From Anaerolineae bacterium (GTDB lineage Bacteria > Chloroflexota > Anaerolineae > 4572-78 > J111), in contig JAKLJP010000035.1 of assembly GCA_023151115.1 (NCBI GenBank), positions 1 to 64,000 on the forward strand: a DNA stretch of 64,000 nt, in the 5' to 3' direction. The notes under the pieces are model-generated. The model saw only the letters and a list, made by a program, of their open reading frames with translations. It was not told the origin of the DNA and searched no databases. Position numbers and translations under genes: made by a program. Positions 7,401-33,877 of the stretch are shown here, one piece after another. The number at the start of each line of letters is the position of its first letter. Within the stretch, counting starts at the first letter, position 1.

Positions 7401-8162
7401 CAAACTTTTGAGGTAGTAGCTGCCGTCGGACATTTTCATGCGGTTGGGCTGTTTAATCAGCGAGCCGGTCTGGATGCACAAGAGGGTATCGTGGGCCTTG
7501 GCCTCGGCCTCGGTTACGTAATGGACATCATTGGTGACAAGCAGCGGGATTTCGTGCCGTCCGGCCCAATCAAACAAAGTTTTGTTGATGCGGGTCAGTT
7601 CGGGGATGCTGTGTTCTTGCAGTTCCACGTAAAAACGGTCGCGGCCAAACACGTCCAGATACCAGCGCAGCCGCTCCAGCGCTTTTTCCTCCTGCGGCGG
7701 GCGGCCGTCGCTGACCAGCAGCGATGGGATTTCGGCGGCCATGCAGCCGGTGGTGCAGATCAGGCCCTCGGCGTGAGCGGCCAGGTAGTCGGCGTCAATG
7801 CGGGGGCGGTAGTAAAAGCCCTGCATCTGGGCGTCGCTGCAAATTTGGAGCAGGTTTTTGTAGCCGGTCATGTTCTGGGCCAGCAGTAGCAGGTGATGGC
7901 GGACGTTGTCTTTCTGCGGGTCGCGGTCGCGCATACTGCGGCCTTGCGGGGTCAGGTAGGCTTCCACACCGATAATCGGCTTGACGTTCTGCTTTTTGCA
8001 GTTGCGGAAAAATTCAATTGCCCCGTGCATCACCCCGTGGTCGGTCAGGGCCAGGGCCGACTGGCCCAATCGAGCCGCTTCCTTGGCCAGTTGGTCGGTC
8101 CGGCCCAGCCCGTCGAGCAGGGAGTATTCGCTGTGTACGTGCAGGTGAACAAAGTCGCCCAT
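4440..8162 (-). CDS. dnaE: DNA polymerase III subunit alpha
   Basis: The 1240-residue replicative polymerase catalytic subunit. It begins with a PHP domain whose metal-binding pattern looks intact ([38 protein letters not shown]), so an intrinsic proofreading nuclease is plausible. The palm has the [10 protein letters not shown] segment and the catalytic [10 protein letters not shown] near residue 418. A helix-hairpin-helix region and an OB fold ([20 protein letters not shown]) follow near residue 1020. After the OB fold comes a proline-rich linker with a run of prolines and a separate C-terminal domain of about 78 residues. The adjacent phosphofructokinase 20 bases downstream suggests cotranscription. 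Length and motif order are typical of DnaE1 apart from the tail. Confidence 0.97.
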
Positions 8163-8181
8163 AAGTTAAGCCTCGATTCTG

Positions 8182-8259
8182 AACGTAAAGCGTAAAACGT
8201 GAAACGTAAAACGTATGATTTATATAACGCTGCTCTTAGCCTTGAACGTTTTACTTTTT
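8182..8259. repeat. Intergenic word-hairpin (GTAAAACGT word)
   Basis: GTAAAACGT occurs at 8192-8200 and 8206-8214 within a run of related AACGTAAA words, and its complement ACGTTTTAC lies at 8245-8253. The element stands upstream of dnaE in the 343-base gap before the toxin-antitoxin pair. Nothing else in 8260-8440 was recognised apart from AT-rich sequence. Confidence 0.5.
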
Positions 8260-8446
8260 AGATAATATCGGAAGAAGGATACCACTAAATGTGGTACTTT
8301 TCCAGGTGGAAATTCTATATCTTGTGGAGTTACACGGAAAATGACAGAACAAATGTTTTAATTGACCCTTTCTATTATACCACAGCTTGAAACTTTTAGG
8401 ATAATTATTACCGGCTTTATTTGGCTAACACCGCAAATTTTAAGGT

Positions 8447-8474
8447 GTTCAAGCAGGCTGATTTATGTTATAAT
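8447..8474 (+). promoter_or_regulatory. Possible promoter of the antitoxin gene
   Basis: A perfect -10 hexamer TATAAT lies at 8469-8474, with a weak -35 candidate GTTCAA at 8447-8452 (16-base spacer). The ATG of the antitoxin is 31 bases further on, preceded by AAGGGG. Only the -10 box is strong. Confidence 0.4.
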
Positions 8475-8505
8475 CAAACTATGCAAATCAATAAGGGGTA
8501 TAAAA

Positions 8506-8727
8506 ATGATAGCGACAAAGACCTCATCTTTGCAGACAGCCATAGAGATGGTTGAACAATTATCCCCAGAAGACCAGGCCGAGCTTTTGAAGATTATCTA
8601 TCGCCGCCTGGTTGAACAACGCCGAGAGCAGTTGGTGGAAGAAGTAGCGGAAACTCGCCAGGCTTATCAAACGGGCCAGGTACGCCGGGGCACAGTGGAT
8701 GAGCTGATGGCAGAGTTGGATGAATGA
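8506..8727 (+). CDS. Antitoxin-like protein of a type II toxin-antitoxin pair
   Basis: A 73-residue acidic helical protein. The segment LSPEDQAELLKIIYRRLVEQRREQLVEEVAETRQAYQ resembles the small antitoxins that partner RelE/YafQ-type toxins, with a helical core and a C-terminal tail (VDELMAELDE) likely to wrap the toxin. ATG 8506 is chosen because AAGGGG lies about 9 bases upstream; a longer frame opens at 8362 but has no ribosome site. Its stop overlaps the start of the next gene (ATGA, 8724-8727), the usual translational coupling of such pairs. No DNA-binding motif is obvious, so its own promoter control is uncertain. Confidence 0.6.
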   Translation: MIATKTSSLQTAIEMVEQLSPEDQAELLKIIYRRLVEQRREQLVEEVAETRQAYQTGQVRRGTVDELMAELDE

Positions 8728-8918
8728 CTCCGCTGGTTTTGAAGCAAAAAATTCGCCGCAATCCAGAACTGCGAGAGCAGGTGGAACGCACTCTGCGCCA
8801 ACTAACCGGAGACCCTTTTCATCCCTCGCTGCACAGTCATAAACTAAAAGGATCGCTGGCTGGAACTTGGGCTAGCGTAGCTTATGATCAGAAGTTATTT
8901 CTCTTAACCAATCTGTAA
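8724..8918 (+). CDS. RelE/YafQ-like toxin, C-terminally shortened
   Basis: A 64-residue protein matching the N-terminal two thirds of RelE/YafQ-type mRNA interferases: PELREQVERTLRQLTGDPFHPSL followed by HKLKGSLAGTWASVAYD, the typical strand-helix core. Full-length relatives run to about 85-95 residues, and after the Tyr-Asp the family normally continues with an RIVF-type strand and a final segment bearing a catalytic His. Here the frame ends at TAA after FLLTNL, so those residues are missing and the toxin is probably inactive or only a partner remnant. It overlaps the antitoxin by 4 bases. The truncation could be a natural decay or a sequence error near 8900. Confidence 0.6.
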   Translation: MTPLVLKQKIRRNPELREQVERTLRQLTGDPFHPSLHSHKLKGSLAGTWASVAYDQKLFLLTNL

Positions 8919-8994
8919 TCACCAATCGAGCCATTTTGTGCTATTATCTAAGTGCGTACAAAGATCGCGCGGATAGTAGGACTTAAAAACCCCC

Positions 8995-10398
8995 ATGGCT
9001 CGTCATCTGCCCCACCAAAATCGTCAATGGCTGTCCTTGCCCCAGCTTAGCACCGGCTGGGAAATCAGGCGGCTGGTTCTGATTTGGGGTGGTTTTGCTC
9101 TGGCGCTGGTTTTCACCTACATCACCATTTTTTCCCTCATTCATTGGTTTGCCAGCCTGCTGCTGCAAGAAGTTAACCGCAGCCTGGCTGTTTTTATGAC
9201 TACCTTACTAACGCTGCTGCTGCTGCGCCTCCTTTACAATGGGACGCAGCAAGTGATTGACCGGTTGTTTTTTCCCGATACAGCCAATTTTAAGGAAAAG
9301 ATTGACGCCATTTGTCACCACTTGACGGAGATTGATAACCGGGAGCGGTTGAAGCAGTTTCTCGGGCAGCAGCTTCCGGCTCGTTTGTTGGTGAAAGAAG
9401 TTTACCTGCACCCGCAGCCCCGGCTGGAAACAACCAAAACCATAACGTTGCCCCTGGAAATGGGAACGCGTTCTCTGGGCTTTTTAACCATTGGCCCCAA
9501 GCGTTCAGGGCGTTCCTTTGGCTACAGCGAACAAGTGGCCTTAAAACAGCTTCAAGAACAGGTGTCGCTGGTTTTGTCGGGTATTCAACTGGCCGAAGCC
9601 CGTGAAGCGGCTGAAAAGACCGACCAGTTGAAGCTCAATTTCCTGACCAATATCTCTCACGAACTAAGAACCCCCCTGAATACGGTCATCAATTCTACCG
9701 GCTTGGTTGCTGATGGGGCTTTGGGCGAAATTACCGAAACCCAGGCCGAATATCTCAACCGAGCGGTAGAAGGTTCGGAATATTTGCTGAATCTGCTCAA
9801 CGATATTTTGGATATTACCAAAATTGAGACCGGCCAATTGACGCTGCAGCCGGAAGTGATGAGTTTGCCGGAGGTGATCAAAGAAACACTGCCGCTGGTC
9901 AACAACCCCTTGCAAAAAAAGGCCGTGCGCCTGACCGTAGAGCTTGAGGATAACCTGCCCCCGGTGATGGCCGACCGCCTGAGAGTTCGCCAGATTTTGC
10001 TCAATTTACTCTCCAATGCCATCAAATTTACGCAAGAGGGTTCTATCTGGGTGCGAGCCAGGCTTCATGGCAATACGGTTTGGGTCAGCATCGAGGATAC
10101 GGGGATTGGCATACCGCAGGAAAGTTTGCCGCTGATTTTTGAAGATTATCGGCAGTTGGTTCACCGGCAGCAACTTCAATTTGAGCGCCGGCGTCATTTA
10201 GGCACGGGTCTGGGGCTGTCTATTACCAGAGCACTGGTAGAGCTGCACGGCGGCAAAATTTGGGTCGAGAGTGAGGGTGTGCCAGGCCGAGGCAGTACCT
10301 TTACCTTTACCTTGCCTCTCTCAACCCTAAAACCGGGCAATGGAAGCAAGGTGACGGCGAATAGAAAGCCGGTCTCCTCAGTATGGGTAAATCAGTAG
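8995..10398 (+). CDS. Membrane sensor histidine kinase
   Basis: A 467-residue kinase. Two hydrophobic segments (about residues 23-50 and 60-78) anchor it in the membrane. A short GAF-like cytoplasmic region follows (about 80-195), then a HisKA dimerisation helix with phospho-acceptor His222 in SHELRTPLN, and a HATPase_c domain with an N box (LLSNAIKFT), G1 (DTGIGIP) and G2 (GTGLGLS). There is no extracellular loop big enough for ligand binding, so sensing is probably within the membrane or cytoplasm. It precedes a second kinase with a closely similar catalytic half and a receiver gene; the three probably form one signalling unit. Confidence 0.9.
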   Translation: MARHLPHQNRQWLSLPQLSTGWEIRRLVLIWGGFALALVFTYITIFSLIHWFASLLLQEVNRSLAVFMTTLLTLLLLRLLYNGTQQVIDRLFFPDTANFKEKIDAICHHLTEIDNRERLKQFLGQQLPARLLVKEVYLHPQPRLETTKTITLPLEMGTRSLGFLTIGPKRSGRSFGYSEQVALKQLQEQVSLVLSGIQLAEAREAAEKTDQLKLNFLTNISHELRTPLNTVINSTGLVADGALGEITETQAEYLNRAVEGSEYLLNLLNDILDITKIETGQLTLQPEVMSLPEVIKETLPLVNNPLQKKAVRLTVELEDNLPPVMADRLRVRQILLNLLSNAIKFTQEGSIWVRARLHGNTVWVSIEDTGIGIPQESLPLIFEDYRQLVHRQQLQFERRRHLGTGLGLSITRALVELHGGKIWVESEGVPGRGSTFTFTLPLSTLKPGNGSKVTANRKPVSSVWVNQ

Positions 10399-20579: not shown

Positions 20580-23500
20580 TTATGGGTTTGAAATATTTCC
20601 CCCGGCAAAGTCATCAATAATCGCGTTGTGAGCCTTGCGGAACCATAGACCAATCTGGCCGCCCCTGTTAGCGTAGAAGCTGCCGGCATCAGCAAGGCCC
20701 ACCAGTGTATTATTAATATACAACTCGACCTTGCCGTTGGCCAACGCTCTCGCCCCCAGGCGGTCGCCCTCTTGAACCGGTGTGGGCGGTGTGAACGAAC
20801 CTACCGCTAACCAGTCGCCATTGCTCTTGCGAACTTCAACGTCTATATTGCCACTGAGGGCGTTGTAGTTGACCAAGATAGCCCCTGGGCCATAATTGTT
20901 GAGTTTTTGCACTTTAAGCATAAGGCCATGGAAGGCGCTGCCAGGGTTGAACTTGGTGAGTTTGATACAAGCCACCTGGTTAGGTCCAAAGATGGTAGGT
21001 TTCCAATGGATCGGCCCCCCTTGGCCCACTTTTACCTGCTGGTTAACAATGCTGTATCCAGTTATGGCCCCGGCCCAGTTGGTGTTGTTCAAGCCGCCAT
21101 CCGGCTGATTAAAGGCATCAAGGGTTTGTTCACAGATGTCGGTCAGCGTCAGTCCGGTGGAGGCCGTAGCCGGATTATAGCGCGGATCGTTCAAGGTTAC
21201 CGTTGTATCATTCCCCAGCGGAATTTGACCGCCGAAGTAAACTGCGGCGTTATAACTGCCAGGAGGCAAGGGTATGTTCCCCAGCGTGGCCCGCCCCAGG
21301 AAATTGGTAATCACTGCTTCGGTATAAGTACCCCCACTCCCGGTCACTACAAAAACAACGGTTTTCTCAAACAATCGCCGGCCCAGCGCATCAGTCAGCG
21401 TAGCGATCACGAGCGAATCATCGCCAGGGAGTCCTTTCGGAGTTGCAGGTTCAAGCGTCAGGGCTGTGTCTTGCTTCTGAATCTGGAATTTAAACGTGTT
21501 TGGAGCAGCAGAGGCCGCATACGAAGGGTTGCCAGGGAAGGTAGCCCGAACATCGTATTGATTAGGCGGCGTCCCTAATAAAGGAAGCGTAGCGCTGGCC
21601 CGGCCATCACTGCCGGTAACACCAATGCCGGTCTGTGAACCCAGACCAAAAATGATGGCTTGACCTTCCAGTTCATTTCCTGCCTCATCGGTTAGAGTGG
21701 CGCTAAAGGTGGCTTCAGCTCCATAGCGGCCTGAAGTAGCAGCAGGTGGGTCAAGCGATAAGGCCGTTGCTAGTAATTCATTTTCCTCCATACCGGGAAT
21801 GTAATACCCGCCCAGGTTAGTGGCCATGCTGACCAACCCGACCCCATTGACAGCCTGGACGATGTAACGGACGTTCTCCGGCGTGTCGCCCAGGTCAAAG
21901 AGACCTTCCCATAAGGTAGAATCGGCGCTATTTTGAGTCAGGTTTAACGACTGCCAGGTGCCGTTGCAAGGAGTGTCGGATGAACAGACAGTATAAGTTA
22001 CCCAGACTTCCTGGATGCCGGCTACCGGATCGCCAATCACTCTCATCCTGAAGTTGACACCCTCTGGCCTGATGGGGGCCGATACTTGGGCAATGACCGG
22101 GGCTGCGGACAGGGCCGGTGTGCCTTCAGCGTCAAAAGATTCCGTATTGTTGCTGTAGTACAGGCGGAAGTTTATATCCGAATACTGGCGGAGGGTATTG
22201 GTTTCAGAACCGGGCGAAGTTGATTTGAATTGGGCCGGGGTTACGGCTAGGCGAGTGGTAACGCCTCCTCTTGCCAGGGCTTCCAAGTAATTCACGCTCC
22301 AGGGTTGGGTGGGGAAGAAAATGTCGGATAGGTAAGGCGTATGGACGCTACGAATTTCGGTGGTTGGTGCTCCGGTTAAGGCCCTAACATTGGGGATGTC
22401 CGTATAGACGCCGCCCCGGAAGCCTACCCCGCGCAGCACCAGGTTATCAGGCGCAGTGACATTTCGCACCATCAACGGCAAAACAGGTTCGCCTGGGTTG
22501 CTTAACACACCGCTGTCGCCAGAAAGGTAAAGCGCCTCGACCGTCTCATTGAGATTGTCTACATCCTGAAGCTCCACAGTGCTGGGATCTATATTGAGAT
22601 CATCTGGATCAAAGGTGATATCGGCAAATCTTAGATTCAGGGCAACGCCGGGGCCGTTCGGGTCTTCCAGCCCAAAATCATCAAGATCGCTATCGCTGAT
22701 GATGCTGGCATCACTCGGTGGGTCGAGGCGCGCGCCAGGCATATTGATGCTTAACATCGGCAGGCCAAAAATGGTTGCTTCTATCAAAGATTTTTCATGC
22801 AGGGCGCGCAACTGCGGCGTCTGAGCCAGATAGATTTGCTTGGCATTCACCAGTGCCTGGCCGATGGAGACCGGCCCTGAGCCGGTGCGTAATTGCCGGC
22901 TAAATTCCAGGTAAATGCGCTCGCTGTATTCCAGAAAATCGGTATCGCCATACTGATAGCCGGTGCCGCCGATGAAGGTAGCCCCTTTGCGGGCAAATGC
23001 CTGTGCCCAATCGGGTTCGGCGGTCAGGCCGGGGATACCGTGCTCATTAACAATGTTGTAGCCGGAGTGGCAGCCAATGCTGAAAATGAGCGCATTTTGC
23101 AGATTAACCGACGACGAGGTAAGGTCGGTCGAAAGCAGGCGCGTTTGATAATCGGCGGCCAAGGCGCTGCTGGCGCTAAAATGTCCACCCAAGAAGATCA
23201 GGTCATGCCGACTGTCCAGCAGTTGGTCAGCCAATTGATCGGCCGTCCAGGCGCTGGGATCTAACGGCGACACATCGCGGCCGGTGATAAGACTGGCGGC
23301 GCTGCCGGCCGGGATACCCAGACCATTCTCAAGCTGCGTTTGAATTTCTGCGGCCGCATCGGCAAAAAAGTCGTAGCCTGTCACCAGGGCCGAAGTGGGC
23401 GCGGGCGCCACGCCGTTGGAAGTTGCCAGGTAAGCATCCAGCATGCGGGTGGCGTCGGCGGCTGTTTCCACCAAACGGCCCACCGCCAAATCCGGGATAG

Positions 23501-26500
23501 GTAAGGTGCTGACCTGGACCGACAGATCAACCTGAGAGCCATACTCATCCTGGCCGAGTACATAGTCAAGCCGTAGGCTAGCCTCGGAAGTGGTGAAACC
23601 ATCCACCGGCGGTATATAATCTGACTCCGGCCCCAGCAGCGCTCGATCAGGATAGCGGAAGAAGGGGATCACATTGTCGTTGCCAACGAGGACCACATAG
23701 GCCAGGTTAGGGTTGGCGTTCCGGTAGGCGCTGATAATATCTTTGATCGCTCCGGCGACCAGGTTTTTGGCATAAGGACAGTCAAAGTTGGTGTCAGCTT
23801 GGGCATTTGCTGCCGCTACTCTGGCATCAGCGCCAACATCAACTACCGCACCGGCCACTTCGGGCCGGGCAGCAAAGGTAGTCAACCGGGCCTGAAGCGC
23901 GGCTATCTCCTCCAGTGTGCCCCCCATACGAGCCAAATCGGTCAAGATGATGGTTCTAAAGTTACCGGCCGGCGCTGTGAAGCTGGGCGGCGAGAGGGGG
24001 GCGACATCCCCACAGCCGCCGGGGACCAGGGTAACTTCAAGCCGGAAGGGGGCGGCCAGGTTAAAAGCGCCATTGCGCCCTTTCACCCGAATGTAAAAAT
24101 CGCCGGTGTTGTTCCAGGCGTTAGCAATGATGCCTTCGCTGGCTGTCCCCTCAAAAGCGGAGATACCAATCAAACTAATCGTCTGGGCGCTGGAAAAGGC
24201 TTCGGGTGAACGCGCACCACGAGCAATAGCATCATCCGAGCGTGCCCCTCGCGCTAAAGCATCAGGTGAGTAGGCATCGGGGGCAAAAGCGTCGGGCGCA
24301 AAAGATTCCGGTGAACGTGCGCCTCGGGCCAAAGCATCGGGTGAACGCGCACCACGAGCAATAGCATCGGGCGAAAAAGCGTTGGCGGCAAAAGCATCGG
24401 GTGAACGCGCACCGCGAGCAAGCGCATCGGGTGAACGCGCCCCCCGCGCAACGGCATCGCCGGCAAAACCATCGCTGGCAAATTCGGCGTTTAACTGCAC
24501 CAAATCTTGAATGTTGGGGTCGGTCAGTTCATCAAAGGCAACCCGGATATCTTTGTATAGAGTCAGATCGTAGTTCTCCGGCAACTCGGTCAGGGTGACA
24601 ATCACCTGGCTGTTGGGCTGGACACGGAATTTGTACCAGCGCGACTGGCCTTGCTGGTCAATGAATTGAGTTATCTCCGCTGTCGAGTTAAGTTCCAGGG
24701 CTGCTGGCCAGGTGTCGTTGCCGGGGCTGACCGGCACACACTTCGAGAATTCGGAAGTGCCGTCGGGGCCGGTGGCGGTGGCTGTTACAAATTGGCCGAG
24801 AGGAACGGCCACAGGGAAGGAGATGTCAGCATCGGTGAAGACGGCATCGCCGCTGTTGTCGGTAGCAACGGTTGCTGTTCCCAGCAAGCTTTGGCCTTCA
24901 CCAAAGTCGGACGGGTTGCAGGTGGGATTGACAAAAAATTCCAGGCTGAAAGTGGTATTGGCGGTGCTGTTGAGCCGGCCTTCGATCCGGGTGCTGCTGC
25001 CATCGGGGAAAGCGCCGGTTAAAACCGGGAAGTTTTGCAGGTTGTTGGCCCCTGCATCTGGATCAAAGGTGGGGGCAACGCCAACGTCGTTAGGGGTTAC
25101 GCCGTCGCCGCCGAGGTCAATGCCTAAGGTGTTGCTAAAGATACTGTTGCTAAGAATAGTAATGCTGATGCCGTTGGTTACCCGAATCCCGGCTGCACTA
25201 AAATTGCGGATTGCCAGTTTTTGGATTGTGCTGTTGCCGGTGTTAAAGTCGAAACCGTTAACCGCCACCCCGGTCTGGCTGCCATCCAGGGTGATGATCG
25301 GCGTATTGCTATAACCCGGCTGTGTGCCGCCATCAATTTTTACCGGATCGGTAATGACCGGCAAAGCGGAAAGTAACTGGATGACTTGTGGGCCGTCAGG
25401 GGGGATGTTGAAGTGAATCTCGTTGAGCGCCAGGGTATTGGGGCGAGCATTGGCCGCGTTGATAGCCTCACGCAGGGAGCAGTGGGTGGTATCGCACTGA
25501 CCATCGTCGGCGTCGGCGGCGGTGTTGACGGTGAGAATAGGATTGGCCGCTTCAAGTTCAAAGGAACCAATATCGCACTTCGTATTTTGGGGTCGCGCAA
25601 TGCCGCGCTGATCGGCAGTGAAAACACATTTTTCCGCGGGGATGGCATCAATCGCCGGACTGCCGGGCAGCAAGGCGTGGGTTTCGGTGCTGCCGCCGTT
25701 GTTCTGTAGCGGGCCAAGCAGGGGGTCGGTACTTTTGTCGGTGCTAATAGTCGGACAGCCGGTGTTGTTGCCTACCAGATTGTATCCCAGGCTGCCGGAA
25801 ACAATACCATCGCAGTCGGCGTGGGTAGCGTCTGCGTTGGCAGTATTGCCGGCAATGATACTGTTTTGGTATCTAACCTTGCCATAGGAGAGATTTGCTA
25901 CGCCTCCGCCGTGTTGAGCAGTGTTGTTACTGATGGTGCTGTGCTTAAGCGTTAGCGCGCCTTCGTTTTTGATACCGCCGCCGGCAGCTCCGGCAATGTT
26001 GCTGCTAACGGTACTGTTGTTGAGGGTCAGGATACCCCGGTTAAAAATACCGGCAGCGAGAACGGCAGTGTTACCACTGATGGTACTGTTGTTAATTGTC
26101 GCCTGGCCGTCATTCGACAGGCCGCCCCCTTGGTCACCGCCTGTAGCCTGGTTGCTGCTAAGGGTAACCCGGTTGAGGGTGAGCGTTCCCTTGTTGTAGA
26201 TACCGCCACCAAAACCGCTGCCATTCACCAGGGTTAAATCGGTCAGAGTCAGTTTACCCAAATTACCCACATGGAAGATGCGGTCAGAGAGGTTTTCGGC
26301 GTCAATAACGGTATCTCCGGCGCCACTGAGGGTTACATTACTGGTTATATCCAGATCGCCTTTGGCCGCAGCATCTTCGTTTTTGCCCGTGAGGCTCAGG
26401 CTATACACACCGCCTTCCAGGGCAATAAGGTCGGTGGTGCTGCCGGCAGGACAGGCGTCTACGGCTTTATTGGTATTGGCAGCAATAATGGCTTCACGCA

Positions 26501-27098
26501 GAGTACAGTTGCCGTTGTTGGTCCGGTCGTCAGTTTTGACGTTTACGGCGATGATAGAAGCGATAGAGGGAGCAAATTGTTCTGCCTGAACTACAACTGT
26601 GCCGGTTACAGTCGGTGTGGCGGTGAGGGCATAGGCATACGTGCCGGATTGGTCAAAGGTTTGGCTAAATGAACTGCCGGGAGGAATGTCGCCGCTTTGC
26701 CAGTTAGTCGGCACGCCCTTATTGACCGGCAATAATTCGTTGCCAACAGCGTTATTGTTCTGGCTGTTGGCATTATTAAAAATAAGTGGTAAGTAAAGAG
26801 CGAAGCCTGCTGCCGTCCCGGTCCCTTCGAGACGTTGGGTTTGGCTGGAGTGATTGGTCCAGCGGATGGTCATTCCAGGGGAGATGGTCAGGACCGGAGG
26901 AAAAATACTCTCGTCGGTAATAAAAACATCGAGGGTTGTTTCGTCGGTGGAGACAGGATCGGTCTGAAGTGGGGGTGGCTGGTTGAGCCAGGAGGCTGGC
27001 TTACTTTGATCCGGTTTGGCCCAGGCCAGCGAACTTACAAAGAAAACTAATAGCAGCAGGCTGAAACTAGATAAAAATCCCCAATATTTAGTCGTCAT
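20580..27098 (-). CDS. Giant secreted protein with LREA repeats and C25-like peptidase domain
   Basis: A 2172-residue exported protein. A Sec signal peptide (about residues 1-33, ending SLAWA) is followed by a cupredoxin-like fold (about 50-165) with degenerate copper ligands. Two LREA-type segments (CTLREAIIAANTN, CSLREAINAANAR) lead right-handed beta-helix regions. A PPC-like beta-sandwich interrupted by tandem ARGARSPDA repeats covers about 835-1020. A caspase-fold region resembling C25 (gingipain-type) peptidases has its His near 1304 (GGHFSA), Cys near 1342 (IGCHSGYN) and a GLPMLSINMPG exit strand. Then come two Ig-like domains and a C-terminal concanavalin-like domain. No sortase, LPxTG or type IX tail is visible. 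ATG 27098 is preferred to 27131 because GGGAGGG lies about 9 bases upstream. The substrate is unknown. Confidence 0.8.
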   Translation of the reverse strand: MTTKYWGFLSSFSLLLLVFFVSSLAWAKPDQSKPASWLNQPPPLQTDPVSTDETTLDVFITDESIFPPVLTISPGMTIRWTNHSSQTQRLEGTGTAAGFALYLPLIFNNANSQNNNAVGNELLPVNKGVPTNWQSGDIPPGSSFSQTFDQSGTYAYALTATPTVTGTVVVQAEQFAPSIASIIAVNVKTDDRTNNGNCTLREAIIAANTNKAVDACPAGSTTDLIALEGGVYSLSLTGKNEDAAAKGDLDITSNVTLSGAGDTVIDAENLSDRIFHVGNLGKLTLTDLTLVNGSGFGGGIYNKGTLTLNRVTLSSNQATGGDQGGGLSNDGQATINNSTISGNTAVLAAGIFNRGILTLNNSTVSSNIAGAAGGGIKNEGALTLKHSTISNNTAQHGGGVANLSYGKVRYQNSIIAGNTANADATHADCDGIVSGSLGYNLVGNNTGCPTISTDKSTDPLLGPLQNNGGSTETHALLPGSPAIDAIPAEKCVFTADQRGIARPQNTKCDIGSFELEAANPILTVNTAADADDGQCDTTHCSLREAINAANARPNTLALNEIHFNIPPDGPQVIQLLSALPVITDPVKIDGGTQPGYSNTPIITLDGSQTGVAVNGFDFNTGNSTIQKLAIRNFSAAGIRVTNGISITILSNSIFSNTLGIDLGGDGVTPNDVGVAPTFDPDAGANNLQNFPVLTGAFPDGSSTRIEGRLNSTANTTFSLEFFVNPTCNPSDFGEGQSLLGTATVATDNSGDAVFTDADISFPVAVPLGQFVTATATGPDGTSEFSKCVPVSPGNDTWPAALELNSTAEITQFIDQQGQSRWYKFRVQPNSQVIVTLTELPENYDLTLYKDIRVAFDELTDPNIQDLVQLNAEFASDGFAGDAVARGARSPDALARGARSPDAFAANAFSPDAIARGARSPDALARGARSPESFAPDAFAPDAYSPDALARGARSDDAIARGARSPEAFSSAQTISLIGISAFEGTASEGIIANAWNNTGDFYIRVKGRNGAFNLAAPFRLEVTLVPGGCGDVAPLSPPSFTAPAGNFRTIILTDLARMGGTLEEIAALQARLTTFAARPEVAGAVVDVGADARVAAANAQADTNFDCPYAKNLVAGAIKDIISAYRNANPNLAYVVLVGNDNVIPFFRYPDRALLGPESDYIPPVDGFTTSEASLRLDYVLGQDEYGSQVDLSVQVSTLPIPDLAVGRLVETAADATRMLDAYLATSNGVAPAPTSALVTGYDFFADAAAEIQTQLENGLGIPAGSAASLITGRDVSPLDPSAWTADQLADQLLDSRHDLIFLGGHFSASSALAADYQTRLLSTDLTSSSVNLQNALIFSIGCHSGYNIVNEHGIPGLTAEPDWAQAFARKGATFIGGTGYQYGDTDFLEYSERIYLEFSRQLRTGSGPVSIGQALVNAKQIYLAQTPQLRALHEKSLIEATIFGLPMLSINMPGARLDPPSDASIISDSDLDDFGLEDPNGPGVALNLRFADITFDPDDLNIDPSTVELQDVDNLNETVEALYLSGDSGVLSNPGEPVLPLMVRNVTAPDNLVLRGVGFRGGVYTDIPNVRALTGAPTTEIRSVHTPYLSDIFFPTQPWSVNYLEALARGGVTTRLAVTPAQFKSTSPGSETNTLRQYSDINFRLYYSNNTESFDAEGTPALSAAPVIAQVSAPIRPEGVNFRMRVIGDPVAGIQEVWVTYTVCSSDTPCNGTWQSLNLTQNSADSTLWEGLFDLGDTPENVRYIVQAVNGVGLVSMATNLGGYYIPGMEENELLATALSLDPPAATSGRYGAEATFSATLTDEAGNELEGQAIIFGLGSQTGIGVTGSDGRASATLPLLGTPPNQYDVRATFPGNPSYAASAAPNTFKFQIQKQDTALTLEPATPKGLPGDDSLVIATLTDALGRRLFEKTVVFVVTGSGGTYTEAVITNFLGRATLGNIPLPPGSYNAAVYFGGQIPLGNDTTVTLNDPRYNPATASTGLTLTDICEQTLDAFNQPDGGLNNTNWAGAITGYSIVNQQVKVGQGGPIHWKPTIFGPNQVACIKLTKFNPGSAFHGLMLKVQKLNNYGPGAILVNYNALSGNIDVEVRKSNGDWLAVGSFTPPTPVQEGDRLGARALANGKVELYINNTLVGLADAGSFYANRGGQIGLWFRKAHNAIIDDFAGGNISNP
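24200..24475 (-). repeat. In-gene tandem repeats encoding ARGARSPDA units
   Basis: About 90 codons encode repeats of a nine-residue unit, A(L/I)ARGARSPD, mixed with shorter FAPDA/FSPDA/YSPDA units. On the plus strand the repeats show as recurring GGTGAACGCGCACC words. The block sits inside a PPC-like domain, between its YDLTLYKD strand and its GDFYIRVKG strand, so it should form a long surface loop. Synonymous differences between units show that it is translated, not a sequencing artefact. Confidence 0.75.
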
Positions 27099-27521
27099 GG
27101 TAAAGAACCCTCCCAAGCCATCATTAGCCATTTAACTTTTTGACAACAAAGCAATAATAGAGGGTCGAGCGGCCCTCCAGGTGAGGAAATATAGAGGCTG
27201 TAACAGGTTTGTAGATTCAGTACTGTTTGGAAGTCTGTTACTGGTTAGAAAGATGGAATTGGGAAAAGGCAGTAAGGGATTGTATTTGATGACAAATCCT
27301 ACTCTAACATAGAACTTTCATAATTTCCATAAGAAAGTAGTATGAATCGGGTTAGAATCGGAGCAATTTGGCAAGTTTGGCGATCAAAAAGTTTTTAGTA
27401 AAATGCGCTGTAAGGAGTCAGAGAGTCACCTGGCAACGATACACACACTGAAAATTACTTTCTGACTACTGATTACTGACCGCTATTTTCACAGGAGTAA
27501 AATTCTTGTTGGGTGTCTGCT
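27099..27521. other. Divergent intergenic region
   Basis: Between the secreted-protein gene (minus) and a methyltransferase (plus) lie about 420 bases with no recognised gene. The middle is AT-rich and could carry divergent promoters, but no hexamer pair was clear enough to call. Its last 45 bases (27454-27498) carry a leader-like sequence with TTATTTTCA/CTATTTTCA and AGGAGT that recurs at 28605 and 60951. Confidence 0.45.
27477..27498 (+). repeat. Recurrent AGGAGT leader motif, copy 1
   Basis: TGACCGCTATTTTCACAGG at 27477-27495 runs on into AGTAA; 28605-28626 carries the same stretch with two substitutions. Similar shorter versions lie at 28701-28717 and 60951-60967. Each copy ends in an AGGAG suited to ribosome binding, but here the nearest start codons are 15 (GTG) and 24 (ATG) bases away. 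Confidence 0.5.
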
Positions 27522-31414: not shown

Positions 31415-31479
31415 TATGTAACGTTATATAGAGTTATGTCGAATTGCTGATGTTATCCACTCGGCAGAAGGAGACTTTT

Positions 31480-32979
31480 ATGAGAAGCTGGCCCAAACTT
31501 TATTATTTGCTGCTTGCGCTGGCCCTAATTTCTATATTGACCGGCTGTGAATTGGCGCGAGACAGCAGCGAAGTCTCGGACATGAATCCCGTAGAAGCAT
31601 TGCCCCCCACCCTGGCCCCGCTGGGATCAGAAGAGACTATTTTGGCGAGCGAAGCGACACCCGTGCCTACTGTGCTTAGCGTTCAGGCCACCGCTACCCC
31701 GGCGGCTGCGGCCAGCTCAGCCGAGACGACTCCCATCGAGTTGGCGGCTCCGCCCGCCCAGCCGGTTGAAGCTTCAGGGGAAGGGGGGCCGGTGGCTGAA
31801 GATAGCGCCGTAGCCGAAGCCCCTGCCGCCGAAGAGAGTGCTCCGGCAGCCGAAGCCGAAGCCCCCGCTCAATCCATTGTGGTAGATGCCGCCGCCCCGG
31901 AAGCCTTGCCCGAAGGCGGTCCCATTGCCGCCAATCCTCCTTTCAGCGACACCAATCCGGTGATTCCGGCGGCCAGCGCTGGCGGTAATTATATTGTTCA
32001 GGCCGGCGATACGCTGTTCAGCATCAGCCAGCGGTATGGCACCTCGGTTGAGGCCATTGTTGCCGCCAACGGCTTGACTTCCGACATCGTGCAAATTGGT
32101 CAAACGTTGAACATTCCTGCGGGTGATCCCTATGCTGTCCCCGACGACAGCGGCTATGCGCCGGAACCTATGCCGTATGCACCCGGTGGACCGGCTGGTA
32201 CTTACATTGTCACCCCCAGCGATACCCTCTTCAGCATTGCCATGCGCTACGGTACTTCGGTTGAGGCCATTGCCAGCGCCAACAATATTGCTTATCCGTA
32301 TATTATTTACGAAGGCCAGCCGCTGATTATTCCCGGTTACGATGGCGCGATGCCGGCTCCTGGTTATAATCCCAACCAGGGTTATCCCCAACAGCCGCCG
32401 ACTGATGGCTACTACCAGCAACCGCCGGTAGAGGGTTACTATCAACAGCCTGGCCAGGGCTATCCGCAGCAGCCGTCACAGGATGGCTACTACCAGCAGC
32501 CTGGCCAGGGGTATACCCAACCGCCGACCGATGGCTACTACCAGCAACCGCCGGTAGAGGGTTACTATCAACAGCCCGGCCAGGGTTATCCGCAGCAGCC
32601 GCCACAGGATGGCTACTACCAGCAGCCTGGCCAGGGGTATACCCAACCGCCGACCGATGGCTACTACCAGCAACCGCCGGTAGAGGGTTACTATCAACAG
32701 CCCGGCCAGGGTTATCCGCAGCAGCCGTCACAGGATGGTTACTACCAACAGCCCGGTCAAGGGTATTCTCAGCCTGGGCAAGATGGCAACGCCTACCCAT
32801 CGCCCGGCTATGGTGTACCGATGCAGCCCGGTGGGGCCGGAACCCATACCGTTGCCGCCGGAGAAACGCTTTACTCGATTGCCCGGCGTTATGGCGTCCC
32901 TGCAGAAGCTATTGCTGCCGCCAATGGGTTGAGCAATCCTAACCAGCTTTTTGTCGGCCAGGTTCTCTACCTGCCCTAA
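31480..32979 (+). CDS. LysM-domain lipoprotein with QP-rich repeats
   Basis: A 499-residue lipoprotein. The signal peptide ends in ISILTGC (lipobox Cys about residue 24). An Ala/Pro/Glu-rich linker precedes three LysM domains, each starting Y/H-x-V and containing [18 protein letters not shown] or close variants (about residues 168-210, 242-285 and 452-499). The latter two are separated by a Gly/Tyr/Gln/Pro-rich region of three 42-residue repeats. LysM domains bind N-acetylglucosamine polymers, so the protein should attach to peptidoglycan or a glycan sheath. ATG 31480 follows GAAGGAGA. A consensus-like promoter lies upstream and a terminator downstream, so it is a single-gene unit. Confidence 0.9.
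32401..32778 (+). repeat. Three 126-base tandem repeats in the LysM gene
   Basis: Copies begin at 32401, 32527 and 32653, each encoding a 42-residue unit with [20 protein letters not shown] followed by a YPQQP and YTQPP part. The copies are nearly identical in DNA as well as protein, which points to recent duplication or homogenisation. Copy number may vary between strains, and assembly could have collapsed further copies. Confidence 0.85.
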
Positions 32980-33136: not shown

Positions 33137-33877
33137 ATGCGATTTTGGCTCTGGCCCTGGCTAAGTTCCATCCTATTCATTGTTGCCGCTTGCGGAAGTA
33201 CGGCTACAGAGGTCTCTACCGTAGTGTCTACGCCGACCCCCCTGGCAAATTCCACCCCAACTGCCCCTATCGCGGTAGAGGCGACGACAGAGACCGCCAG
33301 CAAAGGTACACCGCCCCCGGAAGCAGTTGATTGGCTCACCGTCGAGGGCAAAACTGCCGACAACCTGTTCTACCTGGGCAACCCCGACGCGCCTGTGACC
33401 ATCATTGATTACTCTGACTTTTTGTGAGGGACGTGTCGTTCCTACGTGTTAGGAACCGAACCGCAGCTTGAGCAAAACTATGTTAAAAGCGGCCAGGTCA
33501 AGCTGGTTTTTAACCCCATGATAGACCTGGGCGAAGGCTCGCGGCAGGCGCACCAGGCGGCGGCCTGCGCCGGAGAACAGGGTAAGTTCTGGGCCATGCA
33601 CGATCTTTTGTTTGAAAACCAGGGCGCGCTCTACAGCGGCGATGTGCGCCAGGTGAGCAAGGATCTGGCGGCTCAACTGCCGCTTGATACTGCCCAGTTT
33701 AATGCTTGCCTTGACGAGCAGCGCACGGCTGAATTGGTCCAAAGTCAGGATGACCGCCGCCGCCAGCTTGGGATTCGCACCCGGCCCACCTTTGATGTGA
33801 ACGGCCAGTTGATTGTTGGCGGCCAGCCGTTTGAGGTTTTTCAGGCCGCGATTGAGCCGCTGCTTGAGTCGAAATGA
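33137..33877 (+). CDS. DsbA-like lipoprotein with probable selenocysteine at residue 97
   Basis: Read through one in-frame TGA (33425-33427), this is a 246-residue thioredoxin-fold oxidoreductase of the DsbA/Thioredoxin_4 type. A lipoprotein signal ends FIVAACG (Cys about residue 19), then a Thr/Pro linker, then NPDAPVTIIDYSDFL, TGA, GTCRSYV, and an uninterrupted fold continuing with LVFNPMIDLG, CAGEQGKFWAMHDLLFE and the cis-Pro region RTRPTFDVNG. Homologues carry CxxC at this position; the TGA falls exactly on the first Cys, giving U-G-T-C. A stable hairpin whose loop begins 17 bases after the TGA fits a bacterial SECIS element. The gene overlaps the next by ATGA. It would act at the outer face of the membrane in thiol-disulfide exchange. 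A nonsense mutation is the alternative. Confidence 0.75.
33436..33459 (+). promoter_or_regulatory. Candidate SECIS element
   Basis: GTTCCTA (33438-33444) and TAGGAAC (33450-33456) form a perfect 7-base stem closing the 5-base loop CGTGT. The stem extends by TC (33436-33437) with GA (33458-33459) across one bulged C. The distance from the TGA to the loop is 17 bases, within the range known for bacterial SECIS elements, and the loop has a G in its first two positions as SelB recognition usually needs. It lies entirely in coding sequence, as bacterial SECIS elements do. Confidence 0.65.

Follow-up and report, generated by a model that had tools for sequence, protein, structure and literature searches.

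The gene at positions 33137 to 33877 of the window, the 64,000-nucleotide (64 kb) stretch of DNA analysed here, almost certainly encodes a selenocysteine (Sec) protein of the NF041057 (Rcas_1661) family, predicted to be an exported lipoprotein with a U97-G-T-C100 active site. The argument is a comparative one, and the Sec reading is supported by a TGA column conserved among relatives, by homologues with Cys at that column, by a covarying SECIS hairpin, by the family assignment to NF041057, and by the presence of Sec machinery in the nearest genome and other near relatives. Standard annotation divides the gene, which very probably encodes one complete extracytoplasmic selenoprotein, with a SECIS element that rests on covariation. 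From these comparisons we infer the actual insertion of Sec in the window organism, the lipidation, the redox direction and the substrates.

Gene Layout and Predicted Product

The coordinates of the features are collected in Table 1. Both the ORF listing and the translation leave the frame with one internal stop, the TGA at codon 97, in agreement with the original prediction of two same-frame segments parted by this codon only. There are 23 sites in the window where a single TGA separates two open segments that each run to 60 codons or more; among them, the site at 33425 overlaps the 39 listed ORFs the least (1%, versus 41% for the next). The peptide around the TGA reads YSDFL-U-GTCRSYV. The downstream fold had been described as intact and the next gene as overlapping the stop by ATGA; the domain match of the read-through protein bears out the former and the start of the NUDIX gene the latter. 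The nearest relative has a 183-aa ORF downstream with the same 4-base overlap.

Table 1. Features of the selenolipoprotein gene and its surroundings in the window.
Feature	Positions	Strand	Details and basis
Rcas_1661-family selenolipoprotein gene	33137..33877	+	246 codons, TGA 97 = Sec; terminator TGA 33875-33877; profile and translation
Signal peptide and lipobox LFIVAAC (residues 13-19)	33137..33193	+	sequence, by eye; predicted lipid-carrying Cys19 codon 33191-33193
Thioredoxin_4 domain, residues 78-240	33368..33856	+	PF13462, E 6e-28, read-through protein
In-frame TGA, Sec codon 97 (U of U-G-T-C)	33425..33427	+	translation and relatives' DNA
Cys100 of UxxC motif, putatively resolving	33434..33436	+	sequence, alignment
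SECIS hairpin	33438..33456	+	stem 33438-33444 / 33450-33456; loop CGUGU 33445-33449; covariation, held-out model
Cys144	33566..33568	+	invariant in alignments A1 (28 rows) and A5 (44 rows)
Cys191	33707..33709	+	invariant in alignments A1 (28 rows) and A5 (44 rows)
Presumed cis-proline P217, Arg216 before it	33785..33787	+	alignment; R/Q there in 49/49 register-A rows
NUDIX hydrolase gene, 182 aa	33874..34422	+	PF00293; ATGA overlap with selenolipoprotein stop

Near the N-terminus, LFIVAAC is what we take to be a lipobox, its VAAC (residues 16-19) having been matched by eye. The two invariant cysteines, Cys144 and Cys191, would form a structural disulfide. The DsbA/DsbG criterion, a UxxC motif together with a cis-Pro in a thioredoxin fold, finds both of its elements here as far as the sequence can tell. 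By family and anatomy, the product would act on exported proteins as a membrane-anchored thiol-disulfide oxidoreductase, and may oxidise, reduce or isomerise them. In the mechanism we propose, SelB, guided by the hairpin, would deliver Sec-tRNA-Sec at the UGA, and the ribosome would read through to give the 246-residue protein with its U97-G-T-C100 active site. The protein would then be exported, lipidated at Cys19 and kept at the outer face of the membrane, where the U97 selenol would attack in a thiol-disulfide exchange of the DsbA/DsbG type on exported proteins, with Cys100 as the resolving residue.

A Single Conserved UGA among Relatives

A protein search returned 507 relatives. As annotated, 61 of the 120 listed homologues are only 135-154 aa long, and the 22 of this length that were aligned as proteins begin just past position 97, which is what gene callers would produce by starting anew behind a shared stop. 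The DNA-level search covered 396 genomes from the class of the nearest relative, 363 of which gave a match. Column 97 in the best 30 loci of this search holds U in 27 cases and Cys in 3. A further 50 rows flagged for a TGA all have it at column 97, and their aligned parts contain no second one; since these rows were picked for their TGA, the informative point is its single position. Among the many unflagged rows listed, 10 were fetched, and all 10 have TGC or TGT at this column. In total, at the DNA level, the TGA stands at the column in 77/77 flagged relatives and Cys in 13/13 unflagged ones, so that an in-frame UGA aligned with the Cys of homologues, the criterion for a bacterial selenoprotein, is what the relatives present. 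The original prediction had placed the TGA at the first active-site Cys of DsbA/Thioredoxin_4 proteins, had proposed to look for Cys at residue 97 in homologues, and had named stops scattered elsewhere in close relatives as the observation that would speak against it; the counts above agree with the placement, the Cys was found, and the scattered stops were not. No relative of the selenolipoprotein was found in the viral contigs searched.

The SECIS Hairpin

The perfect 7-bp stem, the CGTGT loop, and the spacings of 10 bases from TGA to stem and 17 bases to loop are all as originally described. The hairpin conforms to the bacterial SECIS model given in the Figure 2 legend of a 2026 review (PMC13188914, available text): the model calls for a loop of 3-9 nt, a stem of 4-16 bp, a G in the first two loop positions, a spacing of 16-37 nt and a minimum free energy of no more than -7.5 kcal/mol, and the window hairpin satisfies every constraint with a 5-nt loop, 7 bp, 17 nt and -9.3 / -11.8 kcal/mol. 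Its single-sequence folding energy is ordinary (z -0.46 and -0.30), and it is the comparison among relatives that carries the case.

Covariation was assessed in a gapless set of 49 distinct sequences in which U follows L, M or F, including the window and three sequences from outside its group. All 7 stem pairs show double-sided changes. Paired cells amount to 88.0%, against a shuffled mean of 63.6% and 31.5-49.9% in slid-arm controls, and cells with both sides changed number 97 against a shuffled mean of 31.4; none of 500 shuffles reached either the observed pairing or the observed double-change count. RNAalifold, unprompted, returned six of the same stem pairs. With the peptides held fixed and only synonymous codons exchanged, pairing of the inner 6 bp is expected at 0.609 ± 0.022 and was observed at 0.901. 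The Cys genes pair at the same position little above chance: 0.417 against a null of 0.386 ± 0.040 for the 12 with L, M or F before the Cys, and 0.314 against 0.307 ± 0.015 for the 70 others. Rows with identical first 45 bases or with fewer than 66 bases were left out of the synonymous-codon test. A covariance model built from 45 relatives, with the window, the nearest relative (L001) and three hairpin-less rows held out, found positions 33425-33469 of the window at 55.2 bits (E 7.7e-13), the next match in the window scoring 13.8 bits. By these sequence comparisons, the hairpin is evidently under compensatory selection.

Selenocysteine Machinery and the Genetic Code

In the window itself, tRNA and Rfam scans and a review of the proteins recognised no sel genes and no tRNA-Sec. 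The search for Sec machinery that the original prediction had proposed was made in the genomes of relatives. The nearest relative, L001 of Anaerolineales bacterium H5_CFX5 (genome G001), is 87-90% identical in protein and has the same TGA. Its genome has a tRNA-Sec(TCA), SelA at 585 bits and SelD at 368 bits, while SelB occurs in pieces that stay below the cut-off; the H5_CFX5 selB is split over several frames (L150, about 8100-10000 of G001 C4), and these broken frames are probably assembly frameshifts. Machinery was profiled in seven genomes with a U member (G001, G305, G052, G201, G397, G398 and G399). All seven have a tRNA-Sec match of at least 65 bits, also called tRNA-Sec(TCA) by ARAGORN, and SelD over its cut-off; SelA is over the cut-off in six, and SelB in three, with partial matches in G001, G397 and G201 and an unconvincing one in G305. 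Three Roseiflexus genomes, which have the Cys homologue, gave no SelA match and neither SelB nor SelD over the cut-off. Their best tRNA-Sec candidates score 44.7-51.4 bits, the highest passing the Rfam cut-off of 47, and ARAGORN calls the three tRNA-Ser, tRNA-Ser and tRNA-Leu.

On a wider scale, 73 genomes contain a TGA member; RF01852 matches at E <= 1e-10 in 60 of them, and ARAGORN calls a tRNA-Sec in one more, G031. The other 12 were searched with Infernal, ARAGORN and a motif pattern, and also for SelA, and none yielded a complete tRNA-Sec; SelA is over the cut-off in 10 of these and SelB in 11, and one (G232) has a partial tRNA-Sec at a contig end. Nine genomes (G308, G373, G049, G144, G088, G113, G178, G059 and G076) combine a TGA member with SelA and SelB and lack a tRNA-Sec by Infernal and the motif pattern. 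The missing tRNA-Sec genes are probably gaps in draft genomes, and some may be divergent. Searches with SelD active-site motifs gave nothing usable.

Alternative Explanations

The most obvious alternative is that the TGA is a plain nonsense mutation or a sequencing error. Gene callers do split the gene, and the database entry is the truncated ORF, the 143-aa downstream piece (P0003). We nevertheless regard this explanation as extremely improbable: a decaying gene would not be expected to share one TGA column with 77/77 flagged relatives, the only TGA across the aligned region in the 50 checked, nor to maintain a hairpin with the signature of compensatory selection, and H5_CFX5, a separate assembly, is identical to the window over 45 bases from the TGA on. 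A related proposal is that the UGA only terminates, and that an internal start gives a separate 143-aa protein. There is a GTG at 33446, and the many homologues annotated at 135-154 aa could be read in its favour. Such a product, however, would have neither active site nor signal peptide, and full-length Cys relatives, P0002 among them, have kept the upstream half conserved. This proposal we hold to be just as improbable as the first; partial termination at the UGA, on the other hand, is compatible with the Sec reading.

An unusual tRNA might also insert Cys or Trp at the UGA. One database protein (P0010) has Trp at this position, probably because the caller read TGA as Trp. Against such decoding, TGA is an ordinary terminator that ends 12 of 39 other ORFs in the window, so UGA is not generally reassigned in this organism, and it ends this very gene as well; a SECIS element would be needless for plain reassignment; and the relatives have SelA, SelD and tRNA-Sec. 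We consider this reading very unlikely, if by a shade less so than the other two, and reading of the UGA as Sec is kept as the explanation. Points that weigh against Sec are the ordinary folding energy of the single sequence, the window's lack of recognised sel genes and tRNA-Sec, the broken, below-cut-off SelB of G001, the 12 genomes in which a complete tRNA-Sec was not found, and the occurrence of the hairpin in one Cys relative (L030).

Family and Known Relatives

The protein scores 266.4 bits over residues 11-240 against NCBIfam NF041057, "Rcas_1661 family thioredoxin-like (seleno)lipoprotein" (cut-off 190). In its available text, the 2026 review lists NF041057 as a UxxC DsbG-like selenoprotein (PMC13188914), and a full-text search for the accession returned this article only. 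Published accounts of DsbA-like and DsbG-like selenoproteins go back to 2005-2006 (PMC1088965, PMC1794560; available text), and 45 DsbA-like selenoproteins are reported from 41 organisms in the accessible part of PMC5029168. With a curated family and Dsb-like selenoproteins in print for so long, the selenolipoprotein is a member of an already catalogued family and not the discovery of one. It shares with NF041057 the UxxC motif, the lipoprotein character (predicted for the window protein) and the occurrence of Sec and Cys forms together, with no difference in kind. The DsbA- and DsbG-like selenoproteins are its redox homologues, UxxC being present in those of PMC1088965 (available text); the window's Chloroflexota group, in contrast, is not described in the available portions of PMC1088965, PMC1794560 and PMC5029168, and we found no account of it in Chloroflexota in a literature search largely confined to work outside subscription journals. 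BdbD (3eu3) and DsbA (4pwp/4pwo) share the domain, judged by sequence (E 4e-16 to 5e-17), but they carry Cys where the window protein has Sec, and where the window protein has R216 before the proline, the aligned 4pwp has T.

The selenoprotein proposed in the original prediction is upheld by the TGA, the SECIS element and NF041057, while its remark that the GT between U and C is unusual is not: within the group GT is ordinary. As a special feature the GT of UGTC was rejected, since the dipeptide varies among the 49 register-A rows (those in the window's hairpin register), with UGAC in 11, UPTC in 6, and UGTC and UTAC in 5 each.

Possible Exchange of Sec and Cys, and a Second Hairpin Register

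A quick tree was made from 165 domains, with residues 97-110 left out and SH-aLRT as its only support measure. The window falls in a group of 55 members (support 99), 50 with U and 5 with Cys. The 83 U rows of the tree divide into 49 in the window's register, 21 in a later register and 13 that meet neither test. In the later register the 6-bp core starts 22 nt after the UGA, versus 11 nt in the window's register, and the loop lies 28 nt from the UGA in the other U proteins versus 17 nt in the window's group. The later-register rows fall in other parts of the tree, where they are interspersed with Cys rows and do not form one clade; they require 5 changes on the tree, of which the starred branches force only 1. 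The later hairpin also covaries: in 30 sequences without L, M or F before U, 81.7% of cells are paired and 45 are double-change cells, versus 15.3 after shuffling. Since the two loop distances occur in separate parts of the tree, the two SECIS elements may have independent origins.

The two sets differ in protein sequence as well. Ahead of the presumed cis-Pro, 31 of the 49 register-A rows have R and 18 have Q, and 76 of 82 Cys rows have T; the other-register U proteins have T there, mostly with UPYC or UPFC (for instance L164, L170, L172, L182, L187 and L193 in alignment A3). Eleven proteins with Q or K before U were scored against NF041057: eight reach 137-183 bits, below the cut-off (one of them, L036, after being cut at its second TGA), and three longer, tandem ones pass. 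Two proteins from outside the window's group in which L precedes U score 158 and 184 bits, below the cut-off too. A database search with L164 returned mostly full-length relatives, in which Sec and Cys are distinguishable only through their DNA. L036, on the same contig as L166, is a tandem Thioredoxin_4 gene in which a single open frame holds two TGAs, one at each UxxC site and separated by 184 codons; at its first TGA (6250) neither hairpin register is clear.

One further relative, L030 (3953-3997), deserves mention. This gene of the NF041057 group has an intact SECIS hairpin, and its codon TGC corresponds to a TGA in L054, the relative nearest to it. The third base of this codon is the sole difference between the two from -29 to +38, while 52 of 522 bases differ over a wider stretch (90% identical). 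The held-out SECIS model gives L030 38.2 bits, and its genome (G403) has tRNA-Sec, SelA, SelB and SelD over their cut-offs. We read L030 as a recent switch from Sec to Cys, a direction suggested by the leftover hairpin. The pair is a natural Sec/Cys couple with the hairpin left behind, and could shed light on what makes surface redox proteins retain selenium or give it up. In a joint reading, to which we would give even chances, the Chloroflexota Thioredoxin_4 proteins would have switched between Sec and Cys several times, with two SECIS registers that are maybe independent and L030 as a reversal caught in the act, and the window protein would perhaps be a dedicated cell-surface selenol oxidoreductase.

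Gene Neighbourhood

Crude ORF clustering of 25 loci brought out no conserved operon partner. Pfam scans of nine proteins around the gene gave NUDIX, a two-stretch Thioredoxin_4 protein, VWA, SDR, UbiE, FtsK and a DNA polymerase III subunit, with two proteins left without a family. A longer DsbA-like gene lies directly upstream of the Sec gene in four genomes (L279:3349-4899, L281, L286 and L288), and the single one of these proteins that was scanned has two Thioredoxin_4 stretches. In G305 (C65:5648-7630; L265, L274), a selD gene flagged with a TGA of its own divergently adjoins the Sec-DsbA gene, an arrangement found by coordinates in this genome alone among 11.

Two other ORFs of the window are repetitive. 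The middle part of a 2183-aa ORF on the reverse strand (20580-27131) contains serial repeats, ARGARSPDA being an example. On the forward strand, the ORF at 31444-32979, presumably a lipoprotein, carries tandem repeats (22 protein letters, not shown) at 32300-32800, between segments which we take, by eye, to be LysM-like.
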